Shown here in pieces: positions 10,823-62,822 of a stretch of DNA of 64,000 nt (position 1 is the first letter of the stretch; the number at the start of each line of letters is the position of its first letter). The DNA comes from Symbiodinium natans (lineage: Eukaryota; Sar; Dinophyceae; Suessiales; Symbiodiniaceae). Made by a program: the position numbers and the translations under genes. The DNA lies in assembly GCA_905221605.1 (NCBI GenBank), contig CAJNDS010002401.1, positions 860,542 through 924,541 on the forward strand, given 5' to 3'. A model generated the notes under the pieces. It saw only the letters and a list, made by a program, of their open reading frames with translations. It made no database searches and was not told the DNA's origin.

Positions 10823-10844
10823 TTTCCTGGCCAGGGCCCCGGGC

Positions 10845-25424: not shown

Positions 25425-28400
25425 CGTGACTTGGTCAAACCTTAGAAGACGACAGAAGTTAGCTGCCACACACCCTAAACTTGGCGCTTCTTAGCAACTG
25501 TCAGACTCCTTACTAACTTAAGCATGCAGCGATGACAGGAGTCCTAAAGCATCTGCAGAAGGTAGCAGCAAAGCTCCAGACGTTGCGGTCAGCCGCGCCC
25601 CAGGGCCAAAACGAAACCCGAAGAAACACGCCAACCCCACACAATGCCACGCGGTAGGGCCGGTGCTCCATGATGGTCTCCAGGCGGTGGGCTACTGCAA
25701 GCATGGTCGAGCCAGGGAAGGCATGGTTGATGGTATCCTGCACGGACTCCTGCCAGGCATTTGGCAGCTCGGATTCTTGGATGCACTTAGCACATGATAC
25801 ATTGCTATACTCCCCTTAGAACCTTAACAAAAACTCATATGTTTACTATCCTCTTGGGATTTATATAAACAAAAATTAAAAATAATTCCTAAGGGGGATA
25901 TAGACATTCTGAAGCCCAGCAAGACGTAGCACCCTGCGGCACGATTCTCCTGCGTCGCTGGATCGATCGCAGAGGTCGCTTCGTCCAGCAGAAGCAGGGC
26001 TGGCTGCCTGTGCGTTTCGGGAAGTTCTACCTGTTTCGTTCAAGCTCTACGAGTACATTCCTGCCAGGTGGCGCCCCAAAAGACCGCACTCCCCAAACCC
26101 ACAAGCCCACAAAAAAAAATCGAAGAACACACCCGCCTCAAGACCATGCGCGCCAGGCACAGAAGCTGCCGCTGGCCGAAGCTAAGATTGCCACCTTCTC
26201 AGCTGACATCTGGTGCCCTGGAGACTATCCTGTGGGAACTTTCGCCCTGCCATGATGCACACGTGAGCAGCTGAGAGTTTCCTATGCCAGAAGTCAAGGT
26301 AGTGCAAGGCCTTCGTCTGAAACCACGTGGTCCAAGCCTGCACATGCTGCAGCTTGCCACGCGTGCGTTCAGGAGACCACGAGACCCAGAAACAGCGTGC
26401 ACCGAACGCAGGTCATGCAACCAAGCTGCCCAGAGGTAAGGTATTGATGAAGGCCTCCAAATGGGCGTACTGCACTGCTTTCCTGAGTCGTCACAATGGC
26501 ATCTGCCGCCGCAGGTGGCCACTGCAGCTTCTCTTGTGCCCAAGTGCAAGCTGAGCAGCCGAATTCGGCCATCAGTGTACACCTTGCAGTGCTGCAGCAG
26601 CACCCACAGGGCTCAACTGCTACGAGTACTATGCGAGCGGATGTGCTGCAAAGCACAGAAAGGTGCCGCGGCCTCTCGCCGGCGCACCGTTATTTATATT
26701 TATTTATGTGTGCTCTTAAAGACCTCCCAAGGTCTGAATCACATCGTTATTCGATGAAGCTGGGGAGCCTTGAATGGATCAAGGTTGTGCCGCAAGGTGC
26801 CCGTGAACAGCATGGGATCCTGCCCGGTGCAGAGGAAGAGAAGGGCGGTCAGGATGTCAGGAGCATGAGTATGAGTAACAAAGCCAGCCGGTGCCGGTTC
26901 AACAAACACCTCAGCCCTGCAAAGCCCTCTGCAGACGAAGCCCTTAGCCCCTTAGCCCTTTGTAGAGCTCCTGCGGCACCAGGCCCAGGGAGCTGCGGAG
27001 AGTGGCCTCAGCAAGGTGCTCTTTCCTCTGGTCTTTGTTGTTTGGTGGTTTTGTTGTGTTGGGACGTGAGTTGGTGGTTGAAGCAAAAGGGGCCTAGGAA
27101 CCGGTTGAGAGGGATCTGGGATTTTGGCAGACTCTTTTGGCGGGCCTATGTAGGGCCCTTTTGAGATGATGCAAGGGATGGAGACTTGGAGTCTCGTAGC
27201 CCTCGTTTATCAACGAAGGCGGTGATAGCGGGTTCACATGGCTCATCATCACCAGGATGCCTATGGCTACTATTCTTACACTGACAACATGAAAAGCCAA
27301 GGACCAACCCAATCCTTCTGCATCCCAAGCTTGTTGGCAGCAAACGAAGCCACGCTGAGCCCACGGCCAGGCCAATCTCTTGGGTGTCAATGCCTCTGAC
27401 ATGCGGCGTTTCTTTCGTGCGGGGTCTTACGAAATCCCCAACGATGAAAGGGCGGCTTCCTTCAGACAGCCGATGTAAAGGAACAAGCCCCGGTCGGGAG
27501 ATTTGCGTACTTTTGCTTCTCAGCCAGCGCAGACCAAGGGGCCGTTGATGACGATCTTCCCACCACGAGGCTCGATGATGCGAAGCAACGCCAGCCTGAT
27601 GTGGGCACAGGTCGCCCTTGCAAGGGCTGACTCGAAGAGCAAGCTTTCATGGCTTCAGAGCGAGCGTACGCGAAAATGGCCGTAGCCAGGCTTCGGGATC
27701 CAAGGCACATTGAGTGGTCGAAGGCACAAGTGGGAACACTCGCGTGATTTATGTGCAGACGGGGGACAGCATACTAGATTTTCCACAGCCGGTGGTGCCT
27801 CGAATTGCCACTGTTCAAAGTCCGCAGGGTGCTACAGTACCAGCAGGCAAACGCAAATGCGAGAAACTAATGACTCATGTCTGTTAAGCATAGCCAAGGC
27901 ACCAACCACCGCCACTTTCATACGCGGCTCAACACTGAAGGTCACACCCTTCAGTACATCCTGCGCTCAAGATACATCAACTGGCATGGGCGTATGCATT
28001 GCAGACAAGCACATTTGTGCACTTCAATACCCACATTATTCCTCGCCTGAGGCACCTCTGCGTAGCCCGCACGCAGATCCTCAAGGCATGCACCATGTCG
28101 CCACAGGACAACCAAAAGTGGGATGCTGAGGCATATCATCAAGCATCACCATCAAGCAAGTTCGGCACAAGAATGTGCACTGTCACACATTGGTTGATGG
28201 GAGCAAAACAGCGTACACACGAAGCTGTCAAAAACGTGCCGTTGTTGGAGCATCGGGCAGCTGCATGGGCCGTGACAAAGAGAGCCGCGGCACACTCTTT
28301 CCGAGATCAGGACTGCAAATACCGACGAGTATACTACATGCATGTAGATTGGAATTCCAGAACAAAACTCTAAGCCTCCGTGTTCACCCGAAAGATTGCC

Positions 28401-31400: not shown

Positions 31401-34400
31401 GGCAGTCCGCCAGACTGGCATGGCATGGAATGACAGACTTTAAGTCTAAGCATGCTCGTGACGGCAGCTGCAGCCATGCGGTTGATGAGTTCCAGCCATC
31501 ACTGTTGACACGCCGGGTTCCAAGAGCCTGCTCACCAAAGTTAACTTTTCGGATGTCACGAATAGCGCCACAAGTCAGGTCAGACGTTGCACTGCAACAG
31601 CGAAGAGTCTGCGAACAACAGAGGGGCTTGGGCAAAATTGGCCTAGAATAACCCACTTAGAACACTCGACACATGCCTGGCCATGGAGGACTTGCGGCAA
31701 GCCCTCCATCTTGCAGGTTACTTTCGCAGGATATCTCGCACAAGCCTGCCTTCCCTGAGGCCCCAGCCCCACTTGGGGGTTTACCAAAACAAGGGACCCC
31801 TTATTTTTGATCCCCAGACAGTAGGATTCCTTAATAACAAGGGGCTCCAGGAAGGCATCCCCCTAATTTCGGAAGCCCCCACCCTAAACCCTGAAGACGG
31901 TTGCACCTTCACGGAGTTGTCGACACAACCCTCGGTCATCGAGCCATGCCCTTCCACCCCACACAGAGCCCTAAAGCCCTCAAACTCAGGAAATCCCCCC
32001 CCCCCCCCGCCGTCCCAAACTCAAACTTGCTTGAGATAGATGAGACCCTCAACTCAAGGTTAGGCGCCTCCCACAGTCACATGGGCCCGGTACCGGAGCC
32101 TGCTATCCTCAAAACCAGTACCGGTCCTTAATAAGGGAATTACCCGAAACCTCAATGTCTGGCCGTTGGCCTTTTTCTTTCTCGGGGGGGGGGGGGGGTT
32201 GGGGTGTACCCGCCACGCGACCAGTGTCAGGGGCCGGGAGAAAGTGTTAGATGGCCCTCCACAATCGGGCTAGAGCTGCTCTTCGCATTTCACGAGGCTA
32301 AGCTAGTCTGCATGCCTCAACAGAAAGGGGCGGGGGCGGAGGGGCTCTACATCATCGTCGCGTGTGCTGGATACGGGCCACGCTTTCAAAGTTCTTCATG
32401 CCAGCCATGGGGCCGCATAAGTAACTGCGATGCGATTCTGCTCACCGAAACCACGCACCACCACGGTGTTCGTCATCACCTGAAGTGACCATCGAGACAT
32501 GTTGCAGGGGGAGGCTGCCAGGTTGGGTTCAGGATCCAGGCGAGGCAACTGCTTGAAAGCTCTTGGCATGTGGAGAGTTCAGCAGCCCAACGGCCCCTGC
32601 AACCAAGTAGCATCTGACAGGTGACTCTGCGTGATGGAGGAAGATGTCTTGAAGCAGTAGCGCAGGGGAACAGCCGTGTTCTGGTAGCGCAGGTACCTGC
32701 GCACCAATGCAGCCACAAATCAGCTCCCACTCAGCCACTTACGATCCCCAGAGATGTGAACACAGAGACCGAGCCAAGTCACAGCATGAAGACCACATAG
32801 TAGAACGGCAGCGCGAAGAGCGACATGTACCAGGGCAGAATGGCATGGATGTAAGCCAGTGGCACCAGCGTCCTGTACTCGACAAAGGCCAACAAACGCA
32901 CAGAACCCTCGGCCCAACACTGCGTCAGCTCGTGCTGACAGGATTCTGGAAGAAGATCATCACACTGCCAGAGACCTGCGAGGGCCAGCGTGCAGAAGAT
33001 GAACATTCACCGCTACACTGCACACATGGGGCACGCCGCCATTTTTTGTCGCCCCTGAACTCCTAAAAAACCCCAAACCCGAAGAGCCCTGGGGCCTTCA
33101 TGAAGAGGTAGAGGTCAATGGTTGACATGTCCATGGTCAGGCGGTTCATGATGCGGCCCACAGGCTGCTTGTCAAAGAAGCGATCCTGGGTAAATAATGG
33201 GGGTGCCGGGGTTAAGGGCTTTCGGGCTACCTGAGAACAACTAAGTCTAATCCACACCGGTGCCACAAGGACAACAACTACACATATAGAAGCAGTGTCG
33301 AAAAGTGCCGTGGGAAGCAATCTTCACACGAGCTCAAGCGAAATCGAAGTCAAGCCGTCCTCCTCTTTGGCTTACTTAGGCTTCTCCATAATCACGAAAC
33401 CTGAACCCTTGACTTCCGACTCTCCAACACTAAGCATGACTTCACCAAGCCGTGCTGTGGCCCAGCGTCAATCGGGGCATGGAGGAGCTGGTGCACAATT
33501 CTGCCTGCTTCGGGTCTGGCCAGGCTGGGTTTCAGGGCAGCCTGCGGGATGCTTTGGGGAAGCGCACACATGTCGCATCAGACCACCAGCTCCTCAGTGC
33601 TAAATAGACAGGACGCTTATCAGGCCTGATCTGCAGTACCTCTTACTTCTACCTAAACCCATATCAGACAGTCCTCCGCTCGCGTAGTCAACCTGCCCTG
33701 TAGAGAAACAGAAGCAGTGAGGTTTACAAGCTGAAAACCCATGACGTTCGCAGTGAAACAGGAGGCTCTTACGTGGCCAGGATGCCGTGGACGTAGTTGG
33801 AGATGCGCAAGGAGAAGCCTTCCGCGCGCTTGCAGCACAATCTGACACCAACCGCAGGCTAGCACTGTCATCCAAGAGCCATTTACAGCCCGTGCCAGTG
33901 CATGCTACCCCGTTTGCAGAAACAGATGGCGCGCAGAGTTCCAGCAACAATCCACCAGCAAGCTACGTCCCTCCGCCCCAAGAAGATCCAAGAAGGACCG
34001 TGCGAACGCATCTTGCTGCTTGCGAGAAAGGCTGGAAAGGCTGGGCTGGCGGTTGAGGGCTGGAAGGATGTCGCAGCCAATCTCTCCCACCTGCACCGTA
34101 GATCCAACCGATGTACATCCCAATGATGCCCAGGAACATCCAGAACCTGAATGCCCGGAGGCATCAGAGCTTGGACAAGCACTGTGTCAGAAGACAGAGT
34201 CTGTGGGGCGAGCTACACGGACCCTGGCAAAGGCCCGGGCAAGTACCCCCCGAAGTACGGATTCGTCGCCTCAAGGACTATGAGTTGGCAAAATGTAAAG
34301 CTGAAGAAAGAATCTATGTGGACACGCCATTTTCGGCATACGTGATCCAAGTCACTACGTTAGGATCCAATGCAATGGCATTGGTGCAGTTGGCCAAGGA

Positions 34401-34580
34401 GATGTCGCAAAGCCTCAATATGAGGCAGACACTTCCTAGTACAAACTATCAATCCTGGGGACTGCATCACGGCCGAAACAAAATGTCGCGCTTCAGGGTT
34501 GCGGTCGAGCAGTTGATAGTGCAGGCGGCAAGAAGATGAAGAGAGTGATGGAGTAGAAAATCATGGAGTTGATCAAGTTC
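25425..34580 (-). CDS. ABCC/MRP-type ABC transporter, second half (TMD2-NBD2), many exons
   Basis: This is an ATP-driven membrane exporter of the ABCC family, assigned from family motifs. Placed exons, 5' to 3': membrane spans at 34527-34580, 34091-34146 and 33773-33818; 33096-33185 (FFDKQPVGRIMNRL, the TMD2 coupling motif); 32786-32872; 32612-32696; 32429-32479; 31272-31352; 30678-30742; 30213-30304; 28458-28491; 28056-28079; 27903-27960; 27768-27798 (Walker A, TTGCGKSS); 27543-27595; 27368-27393; 26971-27006 (Q-loop, LGLVPQ); 26769-26819; 26529-26582; 26430-26454; 26311-26337; 26137-26194 (signature, LSFGQRQ); 25950-26007 (Walker B and D-loop, LLLLDEATSAID); 25661-25749 (H-loop, LAVAHRL); then RFDQV from 25440. 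Phases agree from 32872 to 30213 and from 28079 to 25661. All key NBD residues are present. The start, the stop and a few linking exons are unresolved, so this may be the C-terminal half of a longer gene. Confidence 0.88.
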
Positions 34581-34589
34581 CTGATGCGA

Positions 34590-35690
34590 AACGCCACAGG
34601 CATTACAGGCATGGTCAGGAATGCTATGAAAGGACTTTGCCACTTTAGCCGACCGTGGCTGGCCTCCATCTGCCAACTGAGATGTAATGAGTGGTCATCT
34701 CCACTGTCGGCCGGCCTGCAACGATCTGCAACGGCAGGGTCTGACGCCCACAAGCCCTTCACACTAGCGGGGTCCAAGTCTCTTCTGCCAAGTCTGCAAA
34801 TCATGCACTGGCACTTAAGCTTACTGTGGGTTGGCCATCGCCCGTGGTCTGACAATTTCTTGCAGCTGTAGGATGGATGGCCTTCGCCTTCACCTTGGTC
34901 CGGGCAGGTCATCAAAACGAATGCTTCCCAGCCTATCGGCTCTCGATGCCGCAAACGAACACCCCTACCCCAAGCTTCCCTCACTGATCCCTCGAACCCC
35001 GACCCTTCACTCCACCTAAACATCGCCAAACCCCTCCACCCAATGCACACCGGGCAGCTCTCGCGAAGAGTTGTCACCGGCACTGGCGCCGGTGCTCCGG
35101 CGGTGGCGGGGCGCTTCTCCTGAGCCGGCTCAGGGCCACCCAGAAACGAAGAAAATTCAAGAGCAACCAGGGAACAAACCGCAACACCAAGCTACAATTT
35201 GAAGAGACTTGCCGTCTGCACTAATTTTGGCCGACCGCAATGGGAAGGTTCTGGGAGGTGGTCCTAGACCGAGATCCGAAACAAAACAGTTGGAGCTTCG
35301 AGAGGTGGAACCCCGCTGAAAGGGACGTAGACTTAAGTCTGAAAGAAAACTTGTGAATCTCAAACCGTAATAATTAATGATACATAAAGATCCTAATCTG
35401 AATTATATTGTAGTATAAAACTTGAAGTATGTCTCTGCGATGCATAAGGCGCCTCCTTGGCGGGCTTCGTGCCGACCGGCGTTACATCCATGATGTCCTG
35501 CTGACTCATGCACCATAAGGAGTCAATCGGGAGCGATCTAGGTCGCGACAGAGAGGGCAAGGGCTTTGGCTTTCTAGGAAAGGAGTGGGCGCAATCTTCC
35601 TGCGAGAAGTGCAGAGCGGTTCACCTTTTTTGAGCGGCTGCGTTTGCAAAACTGGTACCGCAGCCAGTCAAGAGAGACTAAAACCTGTGC
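34590..35690 (-). other. Unresolved upstream part of the transporter locus
   Basis: On the minus strand a short open stretch near 34890-34930 reads SIRFDDLPGPR. It resembles the linker that precedes the first membrane domain in some ABCC proteins, but is too short to be sure. No start codon, membrane exon or NBD1 motif could be placed between here and the cysteine synthase gene. Confidence 0.25.
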
Positions 35691-35697
35691 CGCCGGC

Positions 35698-38600
35698 TCA
35701 GAGCTGGAAGTTCGGCGTGGACTTGGAGATGGCCAGCTCCTCCTCGTTCCTGCGACACGGGCTTCCGCGGCTAAGGGCCCCATGACCGCGGTTGCGTGAC
35801 TTTGGGGAGGCCGACCATACAGTAGCATGAGCACATACTGCATGAGTCAAAACAGTCTCATATCACTACGAAAGACTTCTGAAAGAACACGCCCGAGGCG
35901 CATGTCGGCGCTGATGGAGGCGAAGAGGGGAGTGGAGAGGTAGCGCTCGCCGGTGTCTGCCAGCATCGCCACCAACACCGAGCCCTCGGGCGCCTTCTTG
36001 GCCATCTCAACTGCGGCATACATGGAGGCGCCTCCAGAGATTCCGGTGAAGATGCCCTGTGTTTTCGCCAAGGCCTGGGACATGTCGATGGCCGCCTGAC
36101 CTGGGATAGGCACGAACTCGTCGTAGCCGGTGTCGAGGATGCCCTTCTCTGCGATCTGCGGGATAAAGTCCGGGGTCCAGCCCTGGATGGGGTGGGGCTT
36201 GAAGGCCGGGTGCGAGCCGGTGGCCGATCCATCCGCGTTTCGCTCGGTCTTGGTTCCAGAGGCCACGAGCGGGGCATCGGCCGGCTCGCCCAGGCAGATC
36301 TTCACGTCTGGGCGCTTCTCCTTCGAGCGCAAGTCTCTACGACTCACCTAAGAGGCTGAATCCCTCCAATCCCAAACGCACACAACGGCTTGAGGCAAGA
36401 GACCCACCCGCCTCAACCTTGCGACCTCAGAGTGGCACACGTCGTTTTTGCCCACCCCCCTCCTTGATGGCCTTGCCGGCGCCAGCAAAAGTGCCACCCG
36501 TGCCATAGCCCAGCACGTAGTAGTCCAGCTTCATGCCCTCGAAGTCGTTCAAAATCTCCTGGCCTGTGGTCTTGTAGTGGAACTCGGCATTCGCCTCGTT
36601 CTCGAACTGCCGGCAAAGGAACCTCACGGCAACCAAACAAGACCAAGCTTCGTGGCCAGCAGCTATCAGCAGATCTGTGGGTCGGAGGCGGGCTGCGCAG
36701 CACGCACACACACACACACACACACAGAGGGGGTGGCGCCAAGCAGCCAGCCGTGCTTCTCTGCGAGCTCTTTCGCTTTGGCAACCATGCCGGTTCCCTT
36801 GCCTGCCTTGGGAGTGATGATCACCTGGCACGGACATCCATCCCAATTGCCACCCCAGGAAAGGGTGGGGCAAGCGAGCAAGACTCCAAAATCAAGGCGC
36901 TTTCCGGCTTTCCCAGGCGCCTTGGCTCCCATGAAGCGCATCAGCTTCCTGCGCTCGATGGAGAAAGGCTCCGCCATGGTGATGACGCACCTGCCACAGC
37001 TTTTTGCGCAAACCGCTACATTCGGCATCTGAAGACACTGTCCGGGGCAAGCTACTGCTCCGGACTTCCCCACTTTGCCGACATTGCTCTCTGCCGCGGC
37101 GCTTGTATCCGCGCTGGGCGCACAACATCGCCACAGCAATGCCCGTGTTTCCCGAGGTGGCCTGCGCTTTGTCATCACAGCTCCATTTGCACTGAAGAGA
37201 CTGAAGAGCCCCAGATGCTACCATATCATGCAACATCCACGAAGAGACACGGACGAGGCCGGAGCACCTCAATCACGGTGTCGCCAGGCTTCAGCTGGCC
37301 CTTCTTCTCTGCATCCTGAACAACTTCGTTTGGCGCTTGTACTGCGTTGAGGAATTGTGGTTCTACTTTGATCCCAGCCATACGCATCTACGCCATTGGT
37401 GTAAGCAAAGAAGTGGAATGTGGCAAAATTGCACCAGGAGCAATGTGCTCATGGACCTCACAAAGAAGGAGAGGCCAAGACTCAAGGGCCCGCTGCTCCC
37501 GACAGCATGCTGCCCCCCCCACCGACGCGACCCTGCCATACGCATCGCATACCTGGTGTTCGGACTTCGGACAGAAGGAAGGAGCGTGAAGGAGTGCCAG
37601 TATGAGTCCTGACTGACGTTCTTGGTGTCTTTGTCACGACACGCGCGCAAAGGGAGCAGAGGCAGTGGGGAGCTGCCAGAGCTGCAGCACGCTGAATCTA
37701 CCAGGCGGTGAGGCTTCGCAACATGTGAGTGGGGCCAACCCGCGCAAAGCGCAACTGCCTCAGCTACCACCCAACTTCCTCCAGCAGTTCTTGTGCTGCG
37801 GTCTCTGCACAGCTTCCACGTTGCCTCAATGATGGCGCAGGCGAGGCGATCTTTCACCTGACAAGCCCCCCACCAAACACGATAAGAGTCATCGGCATGA
37901 TCATTGTCATTTTTTGCAGTTGCCTCTACAAGAAACTTGCTTGAAAAAGCCGAGGCGCGCTAGATAGTGGGTTGAAGTACTCCAGCTTGGCGTAGATGGT
38001 GCGGCCCTTGGGGCAAATCTCCTCGGAGATCTTCACGCAAGGCGTGTTGCCAACGGTTTCCTCAGCCAGAGCTCGCAGATGCAAGTGCCTCTTCAGGGGT
38101 TGGAGGGGTTGCCCACACCGAACATGTGTTGATCGTGCGTTGTGCAAGGGGGGTGTGAGGGGGGTGTGAGGGGGTGTAAGGGGTACGGTGTAAGGGTGGT
38201 TTAAAGAGCAGTGTAGGGAAGGTGTAAGGGGGGTCGGGAAGGTGAAACGGGGGGTGTGAGAGGGTGTAAGGGGGGTGTAAGGTGGGTAAGGGCGGGGGGG
38301 GGGGTGGTGCAAACGGGATGTAAGGCCTGTTAGGGGGTGTAGGGGAGGGGGGGGGGCGAGGGTGGTTTAAGGCAGTGTAGGGGAAGGTGTACGGGGGGCT
38401 GGGAGGGCTTAGGGGTGTTGAGGGGAGGTGTGAGGGCGCTGTGAGGGTCCAAGGGTTGCAAGGGTTTTGGGCACTTGCAACAGCAGCTCGCGTGACGAGC
38501 TTCCGTGATGTTGGCATAGACACGGCCTTGCCAGGTCTGTGTGGTCATGGTGTGATGGTTAATGACTGCAAGCAGGCAAAATCTCCGGAAGGTCTACGTA

Positions 38601-38908
38601 CAAGGCCTGCTGTGCTTCAACATGGGCAACCCAGCTCCTATACGCGCAAGACATCTCCCACTCCTCAGCTTCGCTTGCGCGTCGACCCTGGACGACACCT
38701 AAACTCTCAATCCAATAAACCTCTACAGCACCCACAACCCTGTAATTGCAGCACTCTCCGCCTCTTAAACAATAAACGGCCAACCCCTAAACCTCTACAC
38801 AACAAACCCCGAAACCCACCCAACTCCCTGGGCGCCTCGTCCTTTGCCGCGGTCCGCCAGGCCTGACGCCACAGGGGCACTCGCCGTGAGGCCGGCGAAG
38901 CAGGACAT
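35698..38908 (-). CDS. cysK: Cysteine synthase (O-acetylserine (thiol)-lyase), copy A, 11 exons
   Basis: A PLP enzyme that makes L-cysteine from O-acetylserine and sulfide. Exons, 5' to 3': 38851-38908, 38504-38526, 37959-38060, 37825-37857, 37268-37315, 37103-37161, 36921-36990, 36748-36824, 36463-36622, 35902-36320, 35698-35749. They total 1101 bases, giving 366 residues plus TGA, in one continuous frame. Visible motifs are the PLP lysine in SSVKDRLA, the substrate loop ATSGNTGIAVAM, the phosphate-binding GYGTGGTFAGAGKAIK and the C-terminal NEEELAISKSTPNFQL. There is no haem or CBS domain, which argues against cystathionine beta-synthase. The first two exons (start MSCFAGLTASAPVASGLAD) are the least certain; they are kept because they are open and conserved in all three copies and restore the family's VYANIT-ETVGNTP start. 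Exon 2 may end with a GA donor (as given) or three bases later with a GC donor. Intron 2 is enlarged by a minisatellite. Confidence 0.92.
38100..38450. repeat. G-rich minisatellite in intron 2 of cysteine synthase copy A
   Basis: Irregular repeats of GGGGTGTAAGG and AGGGGGGTGTGAGG fill most of the intron (443 bases here, against 71 in copy B and 135 in copy C). On the transcribed strand it is C-rich (CCTTACACCCC). Confidence 0.9.
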
Positions 38909-38909
38909 T

Positions 38910-40080
38910 TGCCTTGGGCAAAGATCGCTCTTGCCTTCACAGAACATGCTGTATTTTCTTGCCATCCGCTCAGCTGAACATGTGGGGTGTAGGCTTCAGA
39001 GGTTGCATCGCGTTTAGGTCGGCGGTGGTTGAGGTCCAAAAGGTCTAGCAAATTCTATGCTAGCTATACTTTCTCACCATTCCAGAATCATGCATGGCCT
39101 GTGTTCCAGCTACAGTCGGAACCATGAAAAATCAATGTTGTACCAGGTATGGGGGAGATCTGGGCCTAGGAGATTTACAGAAAACGGTGTCTTCGGGAGT
39201 GAGGTTGAGTTTTCGGGACTAAAGAGTGTAAGGTGTGCTGAAAGGTTTCACAATGCGACAGGCAGGGCAAGAGCATGGCAAACGAGGGCCCCGCCGAGAC
39301 TTTGTCAGCAGCTCGCGGCACTCCTAGGCTTTCGGCATAGATGGGACTTCTCCAAACCCTAAACATTCGGTAGGCCGGCAATAGTCTTGTTGCCTCCGAA
39401 GCACGGGAGAACTTGTGCTCGTGAGAGCGATCAGTGAGCGGCATGCGCACCGAAGTGGGGCCCAGATGGCAGCAAAAACAAACGGCGCAAACTCAAGAAG
39501 TGGAAACAGCAAGCAGAGTGAGAGGAAGAGAGGGAAACAGAAAAGGCAGAGCGAGAGGGGAGAGAGAGAGAGAGAGACGCGGAGAGAGAGGGAGAGAGAG
39601 CGAGAGCTCCGCGCTCTTCACGATCCGATTGGCACGAAGCGTCCACGCAAGACCATTCCCTCCCCGAACGCCGGAGCTGCTTGCCGAAACAGTTGTCCTG
39701 CCCGGAGTTGCCCATAGAATTCCTGATCTCTTAAGCGATTCTTAAGCGTGGGCCCTGGGCCCCACACCCCCATCACTAAACGCTCCCCGCCCGTCAGAAG
39801 CGCCACGTTTTCAGATCTGTTTGCCTCGCAGCCTACTTCTCCAACGCATCGGCCCTGTGAACTCTGAACCAGGCTCGAATGTTTCGACGCTGAGGCTGCG
39901 GATTCGATCAGAACAACTATGATCTATGTGCATGTTTGACGAATGTAAGTAGAACAACTGTATTCTGTATGCTAGTGGGCCCCAACCTCAGTCAGCCCTC
40001 TTTGTTCAAAATGGGTACCGCAGTCCGTCCAGAGATTCAGAGCCCGCAGGGCTGCAAAAATTTTTGAAAAACTTGAGGAC
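38910..40080. other. Upstream region of cysteine synthase copy A
   Basis: No gene is supported. The stretch is partly conserved with the matching regions of copies B and C. It includes a purine-rich GA/GAGA run near 39530-39605. Confidence 0.5.
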
Positions 40081-44616: not shown

Positions 44617-44634
44617 TTTTTGGGACCTGAGCAC

Positions 44635-48489: not shown

Positions 48490-48720
48490 TCGATCATAGA
48501 TATATATATATATATATACATATATGTATGTATGTAGCAGACAAAGACGAAGACAGGAAAACCATAGGTGTGGATCATGGGGGGGGGTGACCATATACAT
48601 ATATATATATATATACATATATTCGACCTTCTTCCCTATATGCAGATGCAGATGTATATGTATGTGCGTCTGCAAAATGAGTGCCGACATGTACTGTACT
48701 TGTACAAATGAGCCAACCTA
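48490..48720. repeat. (TA)n microsatellites
   Basis: TA/TATG runs at about 48499-48535 and 48592-48622; no gene in the surrounding stretch. Confidence 0.85.
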
Positions 48721-49144: not shown

Positions 49145-49145
49145 T

Positions 49146-50198: not shown

Positions 50199-50246
<48 letters not shown>

Positions 50247-50312: not shown

Positions 50313-50399
50313 TGCTGGGCATGGCGGGGGGGAGCGCACCCGAGGTCCGTCCTGGTACACGAAGTGAGACAGCTGAAAACCTGCGCGCCCCGCAAAAGG

Positions 50400-51939: not shown

Positions 51940-54696
51940 CGGGCAACCAGCGCAGGTTCTGCGGCTTCAGCACCGCAACGTGCGCTGCCCGCTCGCCGCT
52001 GCTCCGCAGCGGCGCGTCGAGGAGGCCGCGGAGGCTCGTCTTGGCAAAGGAATCGCAGGCACAGTGGGGACTTGATCCCACCTACAGTGTACCTTCCTTC
52101 CTGGCGAGTGTTGAAGTTAGTGCTGGCGGGGAAAGATATCACAAAGGCCCCACATCTCACCCACATTTCCACTCTCCGGGCCTTGGCCTGCACCTTGTGG
52201 CAAAGGGCCTGCACCAAAATGCACTGCCCAAATCTCCGAGAATGCTCACAATCCCCTCCCACCAATATTGAACCCCCAGGTACCCCCGAAAATAAAATAC
52301 CCCCAATATACTGTAATATAACTACAGAATGTGGCATTTAATGTTAGGGGGAACAGGGGGTGCGTTTAATATCGAGGGGAGGGGGATTATCCTAGAGCAA
52401 CCCCTCTCTCTCGCTCTCGCTCTCGCTCTCGCCCTCCCGAAGTCTTCCTTTGCCTGGTAAGCCCGGAGCACTGTGGGGTCTCCGTCTGGAGCATGTACAA
52501 AGGCAGTGTGCAGCTTCTCCACTACAGCCCGCGGAAAACCGGACCTCAGGCAGCAGTCATGGACAACCAACCACCAGCCAGGCGCTGCTATATTATATAA
52601 CTATATATATTTTTTCCTATCAATTATTCTATTATGCATAATTATACAGTATCTGCCACAGTCTTTCGGCTGCTACCCTTGAGCTGGAGGCTTCACAGAA
52701 GCTGTGCTTTGTCAAGGCGCTTCTTCTCAAAGTCCGGGTCATCGTAGAATGGCCGACCATGGTCGGTCTCTCCACCTAGCTCATTCGCTCATAGATGCAA
52801 GTGCGCTTCCCTCTTACCTTCGGAGGCGTGGGTCCAGAACATGCCACCGAGCCCTCGGCGCTTCTTCCGCCAGTCAGCCAAGCTCATCTTGCGGACATTC
52901 CTGCAGGCAGTTGCGATCTCGAAAGTGTGGACGAAGTGCTGCGTATACACATGTATACACTCAGCCGCGTCTTCAAGTGTTTTCCACAGGGTGCTGAAAC
53001 TCACAACTTCAGCGAACGGCCTCGACTCCCACCAATCCGGACCATAGGAGATGCAAAGCTCCTGTGGTCACATCTGGCCATCGGCCTGCTAGTGGCCAGC
53101 TACTCTGAACTCGCCAACGTCTCACAACCCAAACTCGAGAGTACCCCAAAGTCCTCGCCAGCTTTGATGTCCCGCAGGGCTGCGAAGCAGCCTCAGGCTC
53201 GTGGCGCTGAAACTTCTGCCGTCTGGACTCTCAACCCCAAGCGCGTGCGACGATCCTCGCCCACCACCCCGAAGCTCCAAACCCTCCCAGAACCAAATTC
53301 AATCATGCAATTTCAACATCGACGCCGCAAACACCCAGAGAAAAAACAGAAACACAACATCAGGGGATCTTGTGCTCGGGAAGCCCATGAGCTGCAGCAT
53401 CCGTGGACCCGTCACTTTGGCCGGGCCTTGGTTGTGATCTCGACATTGAATTCTCCCTTGGCTCTAGAAGTCCAGCAACACATTGGCATGCTCCCACTCA
53501 AAACCCAGGAGCTTACTGTCTAGAGGTCCGAATTAACTATGCCGACCTCTCTCTACCACAGGATTGATGGGACAAAAGATGACCGAAACCAAGAGAACGA
53601 CATCCTCCAAAGCAACCCCACGGTCGAGCAGCGGAAGTCCACATTTGGGGTGTCCGCATGGTTGAATACGCTGCCCCGGCCCAGCGCCAGCTTCAGGCCC
53701 AGAGGGCGCGCCGTGGGCTCCTCAGCGCAACACCTACTACAGTAGCAAGTTGAGCCCGTGCGCGTTGTGCTGTCCTGCATCTTGTGTGTCTTGATGTGAA
53801 CCCTGAGTACAAATTACAAAGTGGCACCGGGATTTTGGGGTCGATTTTGCCACTTGAATCGAAGCTCCTGGTCTCCGTGCGCACTGAAGCGGTGATCCGC
53901 GAGGCAGTTCCCGAGGTCCCAGCGGCCCAGAAACATGGTCCTTGGATTGCATCGTGAGAGTCCATCCTTTTCTTGAGGAGAAAACCAAAAACAAATTCGT
54001 GGCAGAGTCCTCTCCGCCCAGTGGCGGCGCCAGCTCCACTATCTCCCCGGCTGCAATATCACGGACAGCAAACACCCCGTAGCCGTGGATGCTGGAAACG
54101 TCCACTTTGACTCGGTCGGAGAAAAGGTTGGACGGCAACACCTCGCCGTCCAGGTCCGAGCCTGTGGGGTTGTCAAAGTCTGACCCAGCCCCCGAGCCTA
54201 TGATCCTCCCTTAGTGACTTAGTGATCCCCTCTTGCCTGGCTCAGCCTGTGGTAGCTTCAGGCCCTGCTCTTCAAAAGCGGACAGAGACCACGCCACCAC
54301 ATCTTTCTGTTCTGAGGAAGCCGCCGCTGACCGGCAAACGCGTAGCTCAGCGCCCGCCGCCACCACAGAGGTCGTTCGCAGGCATAGGTGATGTAAGGCG
54401 ACGCCGTTCTGCTCCGTCACGTCCACGCTCCAGGTCACGTTTGCTTGCTCCTTCGAGACATCTGCGTACAGCATTCCCCAGCCAAGCGGGAAGTGCAGAC
54501 AGCCGTCACCAACATCATACAACCATCGCTGTAGCGTGGCAGACGGAATGTCCACAGACTTGAGGGGAATGGAATAGCAACGCTCCACAAGGGAACCCTC
54601 GTCCAGGGTTTCTTCAGCAAAAACTCCCATGCACCCATCACGCTCTTGCCAGGAGAGTGCCGCGACCCAGGCGGCTGAATCACTTGCAGCCGCCAT
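51940..54696 (-). CDS. Tandem SET-domain protein (putative protein-lysine methyltransferase), multi-exon, 3' end not found
   Basis: Exons, 5' to 3': 54237-54696 (start MAAASDSAAW), then from 54197, 53622-53720, 53154-53179, 53021-53061, 52818-52900, 52703-52775, 52454-52544, 51940-52039. The second SET domain is nearly canonical: HGYGVFAVRDIAAGEIVE at its start, GRGSVFNHADTPNVDF (SAM-binding NHxxxPN type), LRDIKAGE joined to ELCISYGPDWW. The first, within exon 1, has the same outline (GVFAEETLDEGSLVE, PLGWGMLYADVSKEQANVTW, AAGAELRV) but lacks the NH pair and the terminal tyrosine, so it is probably inactive. Known SET proteins transfer methyl from SAM to lysine; the substrate here is unknown. 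Phases agree from 53179 through 51940. A linking exon between 54000 and 53720 and the stop codon are unresolved. A possible further exon lies near 51460-51570. Confidence 0.8.
52403..52433. repeat. Short (TCTCGC)n repeat in an intron of the SET gene
   Basis: Four to five hexamer units immediately 3' of the 52454-52544 exon. Confidence 0.8.
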
Positions 54697-54749
54697 CGCG
54701 CAGAACTACATGTCTGCGTGCTAAGGTTGGGTTGGCTATTGCAGTGCAA

Positions 54750-55545
54750 GAGGTACTTGTGGGTTTGGGGAAGCTTTCTGGCATCCGTTGCAAGCGTGCA
54801 CCACTATACATTCACTAGATCATCTAAATAAGTTCAGAAGCAGCCAATTCCAACAAGCTCTCTGATGGCCACCCAGCGTATCGAATAACCTGCTCCAACA
54901 TGCGCTGCAGCTTGATTGAGAACTTGATGTGGTGGCTAGCCAGTGGGCAGCTAGAAACCCTGCGGTTTTGGTTACGAAAGACACATGATACTGTATGTGC
55001 CACAGTGCCACATGCTCACCATGCTTCACGCCTCTCTGCACCTGTGGGTCGCAAAATGCAAGCAAACCGTGAAGAGACATGAAGAGACTCTGCGCCCATG
55101 TACCAGAACCGTCCAGTACCACAGTAGCAACAGGTGGCACACAATTCATCGGTGGTCCTCCAAAGCGCTACTCCGGAGGAGCTGCTTGAACTCTTCCTGC
55201 TTGGACATGATTCAGCATCCGGTGCTGACTCTGGCAGTTTAAACTCATCTCAAGAAGAGTGGTATAGTAGTAGAGGCAACGGCGTTTGTGAAGCGAAGGC
55301 TGTCTCTGATGCGCAACGGGCCCTTGCAAATCTGACGCAACACTTGTTGCTTGTTGCACTGGGGCCGCCACTGTCTCTGCCACCTCCGAGCGCGACAAGT
55401 TCACGGGTCATGGTGAACCGGGCCGTGAAACGCAAACACATCACAGCCCTGGTTTTCTCGTCCAGAAGCATGTTTCTTAGAGGCCCTGGCAGCGAACCCC
55501 CCCTCTGATGATGACAGAACCACTCTCCCAAATTCGGGGGTCCGT
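54750..55545. other. Stretch between SET gene and ABC transporter; no gene recognised
   Basis: Two minus-strand open frames (54820-55149 and 55250-55531) show no membrane or nucleotide-binding motif. If the transporter gene continues past NBD1, its linker exons could lie here, but I cannot identify them. Confidence 0.35.
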
Positions 55546-55547
55546 TG

Positions 55548-58500
55548 CTACTTGGCCCCTTCCTCGCTGGGCTTCCCCGAGGCCACGATGCGGCCCTTCG
55601 ACATCACCTTGAAAAGGAAGGATCAACTCGGGGAGTGGTTTATGACAATTATGAGGAGTTCACATGAGAACTACTCCCTCTGAGTGCTTTAGTAGTGCTT
55701 TAGGGGAATGGCATGGAAGGGCCGCAAGCTTGAAGCACGAACGGTCAACCGAGCGCGGCACGAAAACGCGATCGAACTTTCTGAGACGTTCCTCAGCGGG
55801 TTCAGTGGGCACAAGTCACTGGCTGCCCTTCAGGACCCAAGGGCTTTAAGCGCTTTGCCGGTGGCCCCGAGTGGCCCCAATTGCCATCGAGCATCGATTT
55901 CAGGCTGCAAGGCCACAACGCGCGCCCGATCCTTCAGCATAGGGCCACAAAGCAGCTCCTGCAAAAAGCAGAAGTGAGATTTCTTCCTACTGCATCACAT
56001 GCAGAGCCTGACTGCAGATGGACTTTGGTCAGCTGCCCAAAGATATGTATATATATATATATGTGTACATATAGCGAGGATGTGTCTGGTTATATATATA
56101 TATATATATTTGCCTTTCTGCGTGCGTCTGTTGCAAAGCTCCATGTAGTGCCTTCCCTCGGCAACTTGACAACCTTTGCCTCGAGGATCCACAGGGCTGT
56201 CGGGGCATCCACAGAGCCGAAAGGATCCTGAGTGGTGGCTTAAGGGGTAGAAGGGCTTACGGGCTTTGAAGGGCTTTAAGGGCTTTAAGGGCTTTAAGGG
56301 CTTTAAGGGCTTTAAGGGCTTTAAGGGCTTTAAGGGCTTTAAGGGCTTTAAGGGCTTTAAGGGCTTTAAGGGCTTTAAGGGCTTTAAGGGCTTTAAGGGC
56401 TTTAAGGGCTTTAAGGGCTTTAAGGGCTTTAAGGGCTTTAAGGGCTTTAAGGGCTTTAAGGGCTTTAAGGGCTTTAAGGGCTTAGGGTTTAGGTGAAAAC
56501 TTGTAGGGTTGCGGTTCAGGGGCTAGGGTTTAGCTTTCAAAAGCACTCTCTGCGGGTTAAAGTTTCGGTGGCCTTGCACCAAGTCTAAGACCTCGACACC
56601 TAGCAAACACCCTGCTCCTCTCACGCCGCCAATCCCAGCCACGAGTTAAGTGAGGCGCTGAAGCCGGGTGCGAGGGGAGCGAGTCAAGAAACCCAAAAGC
56701 GAAGCCCGTTGCCTTTCATGGCGCTGACAGAAGACCCATCTGTACCGTGCATGTCAAGCGGCATCCAGAAGAACCAGCTCCTCGGTATCCCCACACGCTC
56801 CCACCCCACGCAGACTTCGGCTACATGTTCAGGCGAGGTTGGCACTCGAGAACATTCAAGAACACACCTCCTACTACCAGATATGCCAGCAAAGCACAGC
56901 GTTTGCATTGTACGCCACCCTTGCCAGCGACACGCGCGCCCGCTGGCCGCCGGACAAGCCTCAGAGAACCATGAGCACTGCCAGCATAGTGATTTAACAA
57001 GAAGCAGCGACAGGAGTTGACATGACAGTGATGCCCAACCCTCCTAGCCTGACATGCCCTTACCTTCTCTTGTGATTGTGTCACACCAGGAAGTTCTAAG
57101 AATCGTGGGCAAGCGACTGATTCCACGCGCACCGATGAAAGCCTCGTCCCCACCTGCAACACAAGAGCGCTTTCGAGCCGGAGCATGCAGTCTTTGCCCA
57201 TGGTCACTTCCCCTGCCTACAACCCCTAAGCCTACTTTGAAAGCTTTACTTACTGCAGGCCAAACTCAAAATCAGTCACCTGCACGCCCTGGAAACACAA
57301 AGGGAAGGGGGGGGGGGGGGGATGTGGACTAGGGACTAGTGTAGACACCCTTTCGTCAAAGGTACATGGTCAGTTCTCAAGATGATGGTCCCTTTTTGGG
57401 CACCCTTAATTTTGGGGTCAAATTACCTTATAGTCGTACTAGAGAAGTGACCACATGGTCTTTGCACACCCTGAGCCTGAAGAGAACCCCAGGAGTATTC
57501 TGAGCCTGGCAGGAGCTTCAGGTCGCCATCCAGGCCCGCAGCTGCGACGGCCTGGCGATATTTGGCCTGCATGCGGCTGAGAGTTTTTGCGGGCAGTTAG
57601 GGTTGTTTGGGGTTTAGGGCGAATAGGTTTAAAGGGTTCCAGGTTTGTACGGCTGCTTAAGGGCGGCCAACCAGGCTTTAGGGGTTTTGACGTGACATCA
57701 GGCTGCAGGGGCAGATATCTCTATTTGCCCAAACCCCTTGCGGGGTCCTCATCGAACTCCTGGCCAAAGACCACATTCTCACGCAGGGTGCCCTCCGCGA
57801 TGTGGGGGACTTGCGCACCTAAGCCGAAGCGTTGGGAACTAAAACCGGCACCTGGCCATTTTCCCAAGGCTGTGAATCGCGCAGCACATACACGCATGCA
57901 GTGTTCAACACCGCTTCATGTGTACACACGCATGAAGGGCAGCCATGAGAGTGCTTCATTGCTTTCCTGGGGTGGTCCAAGCATCCACCCGGTGCCCTAT
58001 TTCTGACAGTTCGCCACCCTAACCCCGGTCCGACTCCACGTTTGGACTTGACGCACCAAGCCTGAGCTGCGGGCTGTACCCACAGACATGCGGCCGGGAC
58101 AAGAAGGCCTTCTCTTCCTGGGCGAAAAAACCGAACAATACTTCGACTGCAAGGCTGGTACGCTACATACAGTACAGTGCATTTTTAAATATAGTATGTA
58201 CCGCCATGCCTGCTTCTGAGGGCGGCGCAAAACAGAAACCCTGCTGAATGAAAAAAAGTAGAGTATCTTTATGATATAAGCTATACTACATAAAGCATCA
58301 TGTATTGAAGCTTGACCAAGTGGCCGAGGCAGGATGGAGCTCCCCGAGCGCAGCTTCTAGAAGAGTGCTCTTCCTTGGGTGCTTCGGGTTCTGAAGGTGG
58401 GCTTTGGCGTTAAACCAACGGTGACGGCGGAGCAGAGAAAGATGATGTAGGTGATTAATGACTTTGTGGAGCAGATACCAGAAATCCAACATGTTCTACA

Positions 58501-58943
58501 CAGCACATTGGCAAAAGTGAAGAAACGGACATCATGCACGTCACTCACAGACCTTGTAAAGACTCCCAAGGAAGTGGCCTCGCTGGGAGCGACTTCTCTT
58601 ACGCTCGAAAATCGATTTGCCCCAAGCTTTCCCACACGTTGCCTCTGGCAACCAAGGTGTATTTTGGGCTCACGGGCTCCTGCCTGGTTCATGGGTGACA
58701 CCCTGAACCCTAAACCCTAAACCCTAAACCCTAAACCCTAAACCTTAAACCCTAAACCCTAAACCCTAAACCGAACTCAGCTTCGTTCACCCTTATGCTG
58801 TTATGCCAGGACACCCGGAGCCCACGCCACCGACAATCGCCACCATCTCCTGAGATTCGCCGCTAGCTTGCTCGAACAATGCTCCTTCTGATCGAAAGTA
58901 GGGGTCACGCAAAAACTACCAGTTAAAAGCAAGAATCCATTAT

Positions 58944-58994
<51 letters not shown>

Positions 58995-59039
58995 CAGTAG
59001 TAGTAGCAGTAGCAGCAGGAGCAGGAGCAGGAGCAGCAG

Positions 59040-59070
<31 letters not shown>

Positions 59071-62000
59071 CATGGTCGTCGCACAGCTAGCATGTTATTG
59101 CTAATCGCAATGGTCGCAGTGATCCACAGAAAAGTCGTAGCAATAGGTCAAAGTGTCTTAATTTCCTATCTTTAACCCTTTGCTCCTTCGTCGCTTCATT
59201 CTAGCTTCTCTGATTTACTTTCTGTCCCTCTCGTTCTGCCTTTGCAGACCTTTTCTTCGAATCGATCGACCTTTACATGTGTTTGAGAGCTGTTCATTGT
59301 TTCTTGAACCGCCGATTTTTCCACTGCATCTATCCGAGGTACATCCGGCGGAGGTTATGCATGCAGATGCGGAACACCAATCAAAGGTGCGGCTTATTCA
59401 AACCTCTCAGCGCTCGAAGGCATTGCTTGCGCTGAAGGCTACTCGCGACACAGCGCCTTAAGTTCTGACTGACTCCACGCAGGCATCCTGCCACCTCCAA
59501 CAGCCATGTCAGCACCCTGTCACGGATGCACGCCGAGTTGCTCCCTTTCGCACCTGTATGTCGAGGTCGTGCAAAGCCTCGATTTCAATCGATTTCAATA
59601 CAAACGCTGTGTGACATGTGTTGGCTGATTCGCCTCGAGAGCTCGGCACGACGCGCGCCTTTGCCCAACAACAACCTCGACCTCGAGACTCTGGACTGAT
59701 GCCCCGAGCAACCACCTCCGACGGCTTCTCGCGGGAGTAGAGGTAGCTTCCACGGATCTGGAAGCTGGTCCCCTCCGAGCCTTCAGGTGAGATGCGGGGG
59801 TACTTCCTTGCGTTCCAGTGACGACTCAAAGCCCACTACTTGCTCTGCGCAATGCCGAGGTCGAGGCCGCCAGTCTTGGGCCAGATCTCCACCCACTTTG
59901 GAACGCTAACTCCTTCCCAATTCCATCGTGATGAGTAGACAGTTCTGGCCCCAGGGAATGCAATGCTTCTGGCGGCTCTAATCAGCAAGCCAAGAGGTTC
60001 GAAGGGCTCCTGGGAGAACCGGTGCTTCCTCTTGCTTCAGGTAGTTCTCCGCGCGCAACTTGGAGAGCAAGAAGCCTACTGCCTACTCTTCCAATTTCCA
60101 AACCGAGACACAATGACCTAGCACAAGAAGCACAGGTTGCACAAGCTCTCAATTCAGACTTGTTACCTTCCTTGCTTGCACACGCACAGCGTGTTCAGCA
60201 CGGCTACTAGTTTGCCTAAGAAACCCAAGAACATAAAAAGCAATCCCTATATTGCCCTTATAAGGAAGAATATATCTTAACTTTTTGGGGGGTTCTTAAG
60301 CAAATCGTAGTTCACTGGGCTCGTCATGGGCCCCGACTGCGCTGATGCGGACCGTGATCATTCGCTGGATGCCTCCAGACAGCGTGGAGCTCTCCGCCCT
60401 GCAGCCAGATCACGCGCACTCAGGGTTTCAGGGTTTCAGCCACATGTCAGGGCCGTGCCTGCTGTGACTCTGCCAGTTTTTGAAGAGCAGAAGCATCAAG
60501 CATTGACTACCACCAAGCTTGCATGCACGCAAAGCCAACTCCCCGGCTCAGCCGCAGCTGGCCATGGAAGAGGGAGGGGAGGGGGGAGCCACATGCCCAA
60601 CAGAACTTGCCGCAACCGCTGCCTCGATGTGGAAGTGCTGGCAACAGTTACCATCGAATTCCCTCTTAACCCTAAACCCTAAACCCAAAACCCAAAACCC
60701 TAAACCCTAATGCCATGACGGTCACACACCTCAGGGAAGCCAGGATCTGCAGGCAAGCGAAGATCGAGGCGAGGTCGCTGTTGCCGTACCTGACACAAGC
60801 TCTTCCCGAGGTGCATAGTCTTCACACGGGTTTAGGGGTTTAGGGCTTTTATGCCACCCGCTAAGGGCTTAGGGTTCTGGGCTTAAGGTGGTTGGACGAG
60901 GTCAGGCTGGTCAGGACCTCACACGCCATATCCCGGCTGCGCGCTGCACAAGAGGTTGGGTGAGGCCGACATTAAGAATCACGAAGCTGCACCGATTTCG
61001 GCCCGATGCCTATTCCATAAATGACTTTGCCTCAAGGCTGAGCATCTTTTTGAATGCTCAGTGCAGCAAAGTCTCAGGTGAAGGAAGCCCCACAGGCCGG
61101 CGCAGGTCAACAACCTTCCGAGGTTCAAAGTCAACGGAATACCTTGACTTTCCTCATTGCGCTGGACTTGATGGTACCATGATGCAGCGCTTTGTCGGTT
61201 ACGTACGTTCATGTGGCCTTGGGAAGAGGTTGAAGAGGACAACGAAATGGCTGCCTTGGGCACAAGGGACCAGTTTGCAGAAAGTGCGGGCTCCACAGTT
61301 AGGGGTACGATGTTGGGCGCATCGTTGATGGCTACAGTGGGAAGCGGAGTAAGTGAAATGGCTCAAGGCGCAGAATAATCCATCTTGCTGCTACCGCAAA
61401 GGAAGAAGCTCACGCGCTGGCCCAATGAAACCAACGGGGCTGCGCCATGCGCTCATGCCTCCGAGCAGCACATCCTGAAGTAGATTCCCAGCATCGACAG
61501 CTCTCTGGCTCGGATCCTTTTGATTTGTTCCTGAGAGAGGAGGCAAGGGTTGGAACGCCGGGCTGTGGTTTTCACTCGGCATGTTGGGTTGAAGCGGTCA
61601 ACTGCTTGGTCGTAAAGGCTTGACTTACTTAAGTGTTCAAAAGCTGAGGCCACAGGAGGGGGTCTGGGGGGGCACCCCTCCCCCCGAGACCGTATCGGCA
61701 GCTATCGGGACCAGCAGTCTCAAGCAAGTCTTCGGATGTATCTCGCTTCGTGGCATGCATCACTGGAGAGAAGCGAGTGGATCCATGGCTACACAAGGGG
61801 GACATTGCTTTTAAAGAGTCCTCCATGGCGTTCTCCCACGCGTAGCACTTCACAATGCGAATGCCCTTGAGCACTTCGCGGAGCAAGTAGACGCCTGAAC
61901 TCCGATGCAGCTCACACGCCCCTGCCCGAGCTGCAAGTGTGGAACATATCATGCAAGCATGAGGGTTCGGGCTGTCAGTGTGTTCCCACATCTCTTGGCG

Positions 62001-62822
62001 ATGGCACCAGCGACAGCAGGCAAATCCACTCATGGCTGCTTGAGGTGTAAAAATCGGATCGATGGCTTGCAAAATGCAAAAAACCAAACACACAGAGTTT
62101 CAGCGCTCGCTTGACTGATCAGCACGACAAAACGAATGCAAAAGCCTCCACCTGCAAACCAAGGGGCGCTTGTCCTGAACATCCTGCAGCTGCATCATGT
62201 TGATCCCCATGGCCCCGCTGAGGATCACGGACACGGTGAGGGCTGTAGCAGGTAGCAGGTCAGGCAAATGAACGCCATCGGAGTTGATGTACGTTTACAA
62301 CGTTTTACAACACTCAGGGGTTCTGCTCACTACGCTTCCGAATCCATGGATACATGTAGCCACTGCCAGGACAACTCCTCTCTTGGCAACCTTCAACATT
62401 TTTGCTCGGCCTGGGATGGCCACTGCCAGGCAGAAGAGAGTGGCCAGGCGGAGCTTGACAGCCTTTGGTCTCAGGCCGCAGAGCTTAGAACTCACGATCA
62501 GCGGAGGGTACTTGGACCACCGCCTGTAGATTTGGTTTAGGGTTTAGGGTTTAGGGTGTAGGGTTTAGGATGTAGGGTGTAGGGTCTAGGGCTTAGGGTT
62601 TAGGGTTCAGGGTTCAGGGTTTAGGGTTTAGGGTTTAGGGTTTCGGGTTTAGGGCCTTCTCTGTTGAACTAGGACCGACCGGCTCACAAAAGGGCTGCCG
62701 CTGAAAGTTGACCCACAACCGGGGCCTGGACTGGAAAACCCCACAAACTCTCACTGGTGCCAAGGGTCCATGAGCACGAGCAGCACCGCCACCGTCATGG
62801 TCGCGTTAAGCGTGAGTGAGGC
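55548..62822 (-). CDS. ABCC/MRP-type ABC transporter, first half (TMD1-NBD1), many very short exons
   Basis: Placed exons, 5' to 3': 62761-62822 (membrane span); 62168-62242 (ending QLQDVQDK); 61809-61894 (REVLKGIRIVKCYAWENAM, the TMD1 coupling motif); about 61472-61530 (IRARELSMLG); 60026-60075; 59716-59780; 59542-59577 (LHDLDIQVRKG); 59495-59516, 58628-58644 and 58331-58369 (together Walker A, GEATCGKST); 57742-57818 (GTLRENVVFG); 57506-57566; 57118-57153; 56901-56959 (signature, LSGGQRARVSLARVAY); 56763-56780 (Walker B, ELVLLD); 56180-56227 (D-loop region, DPFGSVDAPTALW); 55902-55958; 55762-55791; from 55607 (VMSKGRIVASGKPSE). The usual H-loop histidine reads Q in my model. The last exon runs into TAG at 55548 unless a GA donor after KPSE is used. 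The N-terminus, possibly with an exon near 63400-63560, is unresolved. Confidence 0.82.
56257..56484. repeat. (GGGCTTTAA)n minisatellite in an ABC transporter intron
   Basis: About 25 nearly perfect nonamer units lie inside the intron between the Walker B and D-loop exons. The unit resembles a telomere variant. Confidence 0.97.
57340..57460. repeat. Possible foldback element in an NBD1 intron
   Basis: CATGGTC and GACCA-type blocks recur in opposite orientation on either side of a GGTCCCTTTTTGGGCACCC centre. It resembles the elements at 44327 and 63260, but the pairing is weak. Confidence 0.35.
58701..58772 (-). repeat. (CCCTAAA)n array in an ABC transporter intron
   Basis: About ten units within the intron between the 17-base Walker A exon and the 22-base exon before it. 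Confidence 0.93.
58944..59071. repeat. (AGT)n grading into (AGC)n trinucleotide array
   Basis: AGT units (58944-59010) pass through mixed AGT/AGC and GGAGCA units to AGC units (to 59071). The array shares an intron with the CCCTAAA array at 58701. Confidence 0.93.
60665..60712 (-). repeat. Short CCCTAAA/CCCAAAA array
   Basis: Six units in a transporter intron; a degenerate TTTAGGG-like run also lies near 60828-60880. Confidence 0.85.
62531..62653 (+). repeat. TTTAGGG array with variants in an ABC transporter intron
   Basis: TTTAGGG, GTGTAGGG, TTCAGGG and TTTCGGG units lie between two membrane-span exons. Confidence 0.92.

Follow-up and report, generated by a model that had tools for sequence, protein, structure and literature searches.

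Two genomes of Polarella glacialis, a dinoflagellate of the order Suessiales, are reported to carry 4898 and 3359 intron-nested genes with full-length transcript support; by annotation, these amount to 8.4% and 6.5% of genes, mostly with one nested gene per host (PMC7245778). Here we describe a locus in Symbiodinium natans, within a 64,000-nucleotide stretch of contig CAJNDS010002401.1 (C2089:860542-924541, referred to as the window), where two halves of an ABCC (MRP-type) transporter lie on either side of about 20 kb holding four other genes. We consider it probable that the halves make up a single full ABCC transporter gene, which would span at least 37.4 kb of the minus strand, with the four same-strand genes nested in the ~20-kb interval. 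This reading draws on the positions of the halves along a full-length MRP model, seven colinear matches to a paralog on contig C1891, a spliced alignment compared with shuffled controls, a single-frame paralog on contig C2411, the domain order of the C1891 gene, evidence at the edges of the interval, unique flanks, and the Polarella precedent.

Two halves of an ABCC transporter and their paralogs

Exons encoding the first transmembrane domain and nucleotide-binding domain (TMD1-NBD1) of an ABCC/MRP transporter occupy 62.3 to 55.56 kb on the minus strand, and those encoding TMD2-NBD2 follow downstream on the same strand at 34.72 to 24.80 kb. The best NCBIfam model for both was MRP_assoc_pro, matched by half 1 at positions 642 to 843 of 1522 (2e-50) and by half 2 at positions 1301 to 1500 of 1522 (1.4e-69); both scores are far under the model's full-length cut-off, as expected of fragments. 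Searches of the PDB returned ABCC3 and YCF1 as top matches for the NBD1 fragment (2.6e-22) and ABCC5 for the TMD2/NBD2 fragment (2.8e-28), with ABCB1 next and close (1.1e-27). In Pfam, half 2 matched ABC_tran (3.6e-26) and ABC_membrane (4.2e-10), while half 1 matched ABC_tran (6.8e-17) and, under the cut-off, ABC_membrane (0.0046); the modelling of TMD1 is incomplete, so the membrane domain stands out only in half 2. Each of the two NBDs has a Walker A, a signature, and a Walker B motif. Since both halves have ABCC proteins as best matches, at separate places along a full-length MRP model, the sequence supports ABCC membership well, and the possibility that the window holds two copies of one half was rejected. 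A first-pass annotation of this DNA had already called such a duplication unlikely, and the four motifs that it cited lie on the minus strand where it placed them.

We searched the genome (759,417,921 bases in 2543 contigs) with a half 2 query and scored 81 candidates, so that counts are lower bounds. Outside the window, contig C1202 scored best among these 81 (54% identity over 82 residues), and short stretches on C1891 reached 69% identity. Two relatives are informative about domain order. At C2411:921957-924674, a single 906-codon frame covers NBD1, TMD2, and the part of NBD2 up to Walker B, with two ABC_tran matches and one ABC_membrane match in Pfam. At C1891:415-462 kb, a plus-strand gene of many exons keeps the whole ABCC order: TMD1 lies near 415.1 kb, NBD1 at 428.7 to 435.1 kb, TMD2 from ~436.6 kb, and NBD2 to 461.9 kb. 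ABCC relatives therefore exist in this genome in compact (C2411) and exploded (C1891) forms. Compared without a splice model and after repeats were filtered out, translated frames of C1891 gave seven distinct matches of more than 29 bits on the window gene strand (eight rows, one of them an out-of-frame shadow), all in stop-free stretches and in an order identical in both genes. By sequence, then, the halves complement each other and stand in the right order, and the same genome has relatives of full or nearly full length; from the C2411 and C1891 paralogs, we infer that both halves belong on one polypeptide. The first-pass claim of complementary halves in full-length ABCC order is thus borne out by the model positions, the colinear matches, and the two paralogs.

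The C1891 gene has expanded in a different way from the window gene. Two LINE-like (long interspersed nuclear element) insertions with long open frames lie in other introns of the C1891 gene (419317-425386, plus strand; 446499-452607, minus strand), with reverse transcriptase and endonuclease domains and, in one of them, RNase H. At C92:193-221 kb, full ABC transporters that look ABCB-like by eye are repeated in tandem every ~5 kb, in at least five almost identical copies.

We aligned a profile built from C2411 and C1891 to window positions 60600 to 24300 with a spliced aligner that compares a profile with the genome, allows GT, GC, or GA donors with AG acceptors in all phases, forbids stops, and is colinear by construction. 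The alignment scored 902 with the first profile and 913 with a corrected one; controls, which used the first profile rather than the refined one, gave 63 to 78 in all five shuffled profiles and 70.5 on the opposite strand. Of the 47 exons in the refined model, two are linker exons that lack support and others are weak; because the aligner bars stops, open frames in weak exons prove nothing. Its strong exons cover NBD1 from 59772 to 55563, TMD2 from 34715, and NBD2 to 25980, after which C-terminal exons were followed by frame to 24.8 kb. In 18 of the 47 exons that passed filtering, donors were GC (9), GT (6), or GA (3), and the acceptor was AG|G in 17 of 18; since the aligner admits only these donors and slightly favors AGG, the counts are consistent with, and not independent evidence for, the GC/GT/GA donors given for S. 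microadriaticum (PMC5177918).

All exons lie on the minus strand. A probable TMD1 exon region at 62166 to 62267 (...GINMMQLQDVQDKR), with boundaries approximate and the 5′ end of the gene not resolved, was read by frame, and we presume it to be ABCC-like. A TMD1 exon at 61812 to 61895 (GVYLLREVLKGIRIVKCYAWENAMEDSL) has a counterpart at ~415.1 kb of C1891 (SLLREVLFGIRTVKCYAWEAAFFEEV). The TMD1 frame of C2411 scored 71.5 against the window's 5′ region, under all five of its shuffles (72 to 95.5), and for want of significance no TMD1 exons are claimed upstream of the CYAWE exon. NBD1 exons at 56898 to 59772, placed by spliced alignment and by PDB and NCBIfam matches, run from near the A-loop through Walker A and the Q-loop to the LSGGQRARVSLARVAY signature; spliced alignment places those carrying Walker B and the D-loop at 55563 to 56780. 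The last certain NBD1 exon, VMSKGRIVASGKPSE, spans 55607 to 55563 and ends on a GA donor in phase 0. The first recognizable TMD2 exons lie within 34362 to 34715, at 34715 to 34664 (GRPTVEMTTHYISVGRW), 34580 to 34530 (RNLINSMIFYSITLFIF), and 34413 to 34362 (LLCDISLANCTNAIALDP). Further TMD2 exons, including DRFFDKQPVGRIMNRLTMDMSTIDLYLFMKAP (33185 to 33079), were placed by spliced alignment at 32417 to 33970, where the ABC_membrane match falls, and the end of TMD2, less certain, at 30771 to 30033. NBD2 exons from ~27960 to 24802, the source of the stronger ABC_tran match and of the C-terminal MRP positions, carry Walker A (TTGCGKSS), LSFGQRQLLCLAR, DEATSAIDPATQE, and AVAHRLETI, and frame reading puts the stop codon at 24799 to 24801. 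Half 2 is thus somewhat longer than the first-pass annotation proposed, beginning at 34715 rather than at 34.6 kb and continuing past 25425 to this stop.

The position in NBD1 that we take to be the site of the expected H-loop histidine carries Q in three ABCC paralogs: VVALQPE in the window (55958 to 55896), VVVLQPD in C1891 (434812 to 434865), and IIAMQPN in the C2411 frame. This may reflect a degenerate ATP site in this ABCC subfamily.

The interval between the halves

The interval from the last certain NBD1 exon to the first certain TMD2 exon spans 34716 to 55562 (~20.8 kb) and, as the first-pass annotation had recognized, contains a SET-domain gene and three cysteine synthase genes on the same strand as the halves, the SET-type assignment being moderately supported. 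Read 5′ to 3′ on the minus strand, the SET-type gene comes first, followed by three tandem cysteine synthase units at 48.5 to 35.7 kb. The SET-type gene occupies 53020 to 54696, with a presumed ATG at 54696 and SET motifs at ~54141 to 53020. A query stitched from three fragments matched Pfam SET at 0.00039 (21.2 bits versus a cut-off of 22.4) and PBCV-1 vSET in the PDB at 3.6e-09, while the two long frames at this locus, each searched alone, had no Pfam match at E 0.01. Cysteine synthase units C, B, and A lie at 44625 to 48496, 40071 to 43745 (the extent of repeat matches), and 35697 to 39910, with last coding exons at 44861 to 45262, 40280 to 40681, and 35901 to 36302, respectively. Their identity is indicated by Pfam PALP (8e-53), by NCBIfam cysK (2.1e-90, yet under the model cut-off), and by cysteine synthases among the best PDB matches. 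Repeat matches among the units are 72 to 91% identical, and the three last coding exons differ pairwise at 0, 1, and 1 of 402 nucleotides, a pattern suggestive of a gene-conversion tract or of very strong constraint. A comparison of the array edges for direct repeats gave a longest common word of 10 bases, which we took as chance with no formal test.

At the upstream edge of the interval, exon 55607 to 55563 ends at the same residue and in the same phase (0) as C1891 435081 to 435125, and the boundary before this exon is also common to C1891; over the whole window model, 3 of 46 internal boundaries coincide exactly with those of C1891, where chance would give ~0.8. At the downstream edge, the three TMD2-start exons align to C1891 without gaps, with identities of 12/17, 3/17, and 10/18. 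Together they score 125, compared with a maximum of 71.5 in 100 shuffles, a control that is generous since the C1891 reading there was picked by eye with the window in view. The frame of the first of these exons is closed upstream by an in-frame TGA at 34761, and its only ATG (34698 to 34696) comes after GRPTVE, which corresponds to GRPTWE of C1891. Given the upstream TGA and an ATG found only after residues shared with C1891, half 2 seems to need an exon upstream of 34715 to 34664, and a start of half 2 within its first recognizable exon is disfavored. Where the window has the array, C1891 has 1.47 kb (435.125 to 436.597 kb) between the exons matching the window edges; a frame scan of this gap, in which no family search was run, found no open frames of at least 140 codons.

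The linker between the halves is ~50 residues long in C2411 and poorly conserved, and in the window they presumably lie in at least one small exon that could not be placed. Candidate solutions at 55383 to 55295 with 52479 to 52421, at 55196 to 55158 with 35128 to 35061 and 34964 to 34933, and at 55199 to 55139 with 34740 onwards were considered; shuffled linkers scored equally, and none of these is claimed. An ungapped frame comparison of C1891 with 55.6 to 34.35 kb returned, at threshold, only rows of repeats, low complexity, or cysteine synthase shadow.

If the halves are one gene, genome order places the nested genes between exons of a single host. One or more introns at the NBD1-linker junction would then have grown to ~20 kb, taking in the SET-type gene and the three cysteine synthase genes, which are tandem duplicates. 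Entry or expansion of the array there probably came after the window gene had split from its paralogs. The ABCC pre-mRNA would be spliced across 20 kb, and the nested genes would be expressed as separate mRNAs, either from their own promoters or through spliced-leader trans-splicing. In the window, we found no relicts of the dinoflagellate spliced leader (DinoSL) with up to three mismatches, nor of its 12-base core with one mismatch, and Rfam gave 0 matches at gathering scores. Iso-Seq data from S. tridacnidorum and S. natans, including a library specific for DinoSL, are described in PMC8045281. Base composition ranges from 0.31 to 0.60 GC in 2-kb steps, with an AT-rich region at 7900 to 11900 (GC of 0.31 at 8 to 10 kb) with TTTTAATAG arrays and repeats of 31 bases; TTTAGGG arrays resembling telomeres recur often in the window, for example, at 25014 to 25112 and 62534 to 62654.

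Alternatives to a single gene

The first-pass annotation left four explanations open. We favor one gene with nested same-strand genes, and the chief rival is a pair of half-transporter genes, in which an ancestral ABCC gene underwent fission as the SET-cysteine synthase array entered the linker, leaving two mRNAs, the second with its own spliced leader, and proteins that pair as a heterodimer. We regard this as unlikely, yet several observations speak for it and against a single gene. The point at which the array interrupts the sequence is precisely the junction of the two TMD-NBD modules. A TAG lies four codons past the last NBD1 donor, so that a truncated half-1 protein is possible, and an ATG (34698 to 34696) lies near the start of TMD2, where C2411 lacks the preceding GRPT residues. 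No linker exon could be placed: shuffled linkers equaled the observed placement in 30 of 100 trials when only the flanks were used and in 37 of 40 over the whole interval, so a phase-consistent chain across the gap is not demonstrated, and the first alignment run put weak linker exons inside the nested genes while missing two of the TMD2-start exons. With so few exact boundaries relative to chance, the shared NBD1 boundary supports an ancestral intron weakly. Furthermore, polyadenylation of the nested same-strand genes could truncate the transcript of the host, and same-strand nesting together with spliced-leader trans-splicing makes separate cistrons feasible; a review describes trans-splicing of multi-gene transcripts and calls polycistronic expression apparently rare (PMC11453091). 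However, the candidate ATG of half 2 stands downstream of residues shared with C1891, albeit not with C2411, in a frame closed by the stop at 34761, and Polarella provides documented cases of genes nested in introns of an intact host. An intermediate state, which we hold to be distinctly unlikely, is fission in progress, whereby an array in the linker intron and trans-splicing would yield a full ABCC transporter and two half-transporters from one locus, with nested sulfur metabolism genes in the same transcription unit.

The large distance between the halves and the unplaceable linker exons might also be expected of a broken ABCC gene, a pseudogene or one that is dying, disrupted by insertion of the array. 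This is very unlikely in our judgment, given that Walker A, signature, and Walker B are present in both NBDs, that the seven stretches matching C1891 are free of stops, and that the Q at the NBD1 H-loop position occurs in both paralogs as well. An assembly error that misplaced the SET-cysteine synthase stretch into an ABCC gene seems the least probable of these explanations. Three tandem units of 72 to 91% identity are the kind of array that can mislead assemblers, but such an error would require two chimeric joins, both preserving order and strand. The window contains 0 N's, so a scaffold gap was rejected. The flank at 34300 to 35690 has one match in the 759-Mb genome, and that at 55250 to 56250 has one full match, its other 53 rows falling within ~90 bases of low complexity; among the genome matches of both flanks, no alternative junction lacking the array was seen. 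Unique flanks and the absence of N's argue against misassembly, without replacing read mapping. Of the explanations first listed, then, a single gene with nested genes is favored, assembly error is disfavored (0 N's and no second full copy of either flank), and two half-transporters are still to be reckoned with.

Comparison with nested genes and ABCC transporters elsewhere

If the single-gene reading holds, the locus is a further case of the intron nesting known in dinoflagellates, with several same-strand genes. With thousands of genes inside introns already published for a related dinoflagellate (PMC7245778), the arrangement is less surprising than it might seem. In a search of the literature on nested genes in dinoflagellates, which did not extend to printed annotation of this locus, that paper was the only one with nested-gene terms among the matches listed (20 of 53 and 15 of 930); the word "nested" is absent from the available portion of the 2024 review (PMC11453091). 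The locus offers a checkable case of multigene same-strand nesting in a setting where mRNAs can be trans-spliced, and could be used to learn how trans-splicing and polyadenylation of nested genes compete with cis-splicing across 20 kb. Automatic annotation may also call two half-transporters for one such gene, so that the ABC transporters of coral symbionts and related species would be miscounted.

Like ABCC3, YCF1, and ABCC5, the putative single gene of the window would follow the order TMD1-NBD1-TMD2-NBD2. It would differ from known ABCC/MRP transporters in its length of at least 37.4 kb, in its several tens of small exons (47 modelled, not all certain), and in the ~20-kb gene-bearing interval within the linker; its NBD1 also has Q, as in both paralogs, at the H-loop site where we presume a histidine to be usual. 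Within the genome, both paralogs share its domain order, and they differ from it in layout, C2411 holding NBD1-TMD2-NBD2 (to Walker B) in one frame and C1891 having 1.47 kb where the window has the array. The likeness to Polarella, from the accessible text of PMC7245778, lies in multi-exon genes whose long introns hold other genes, sometimes several of one family, and in unidirectional clustering. The strand of the nested genes is not given in that text, whereas those in the window are all on the strand of their putative host. In Polarella, there is mostly one nested gene per host (PMC7245778), whereas here four, as predicted from the sequence, lie in one interval.

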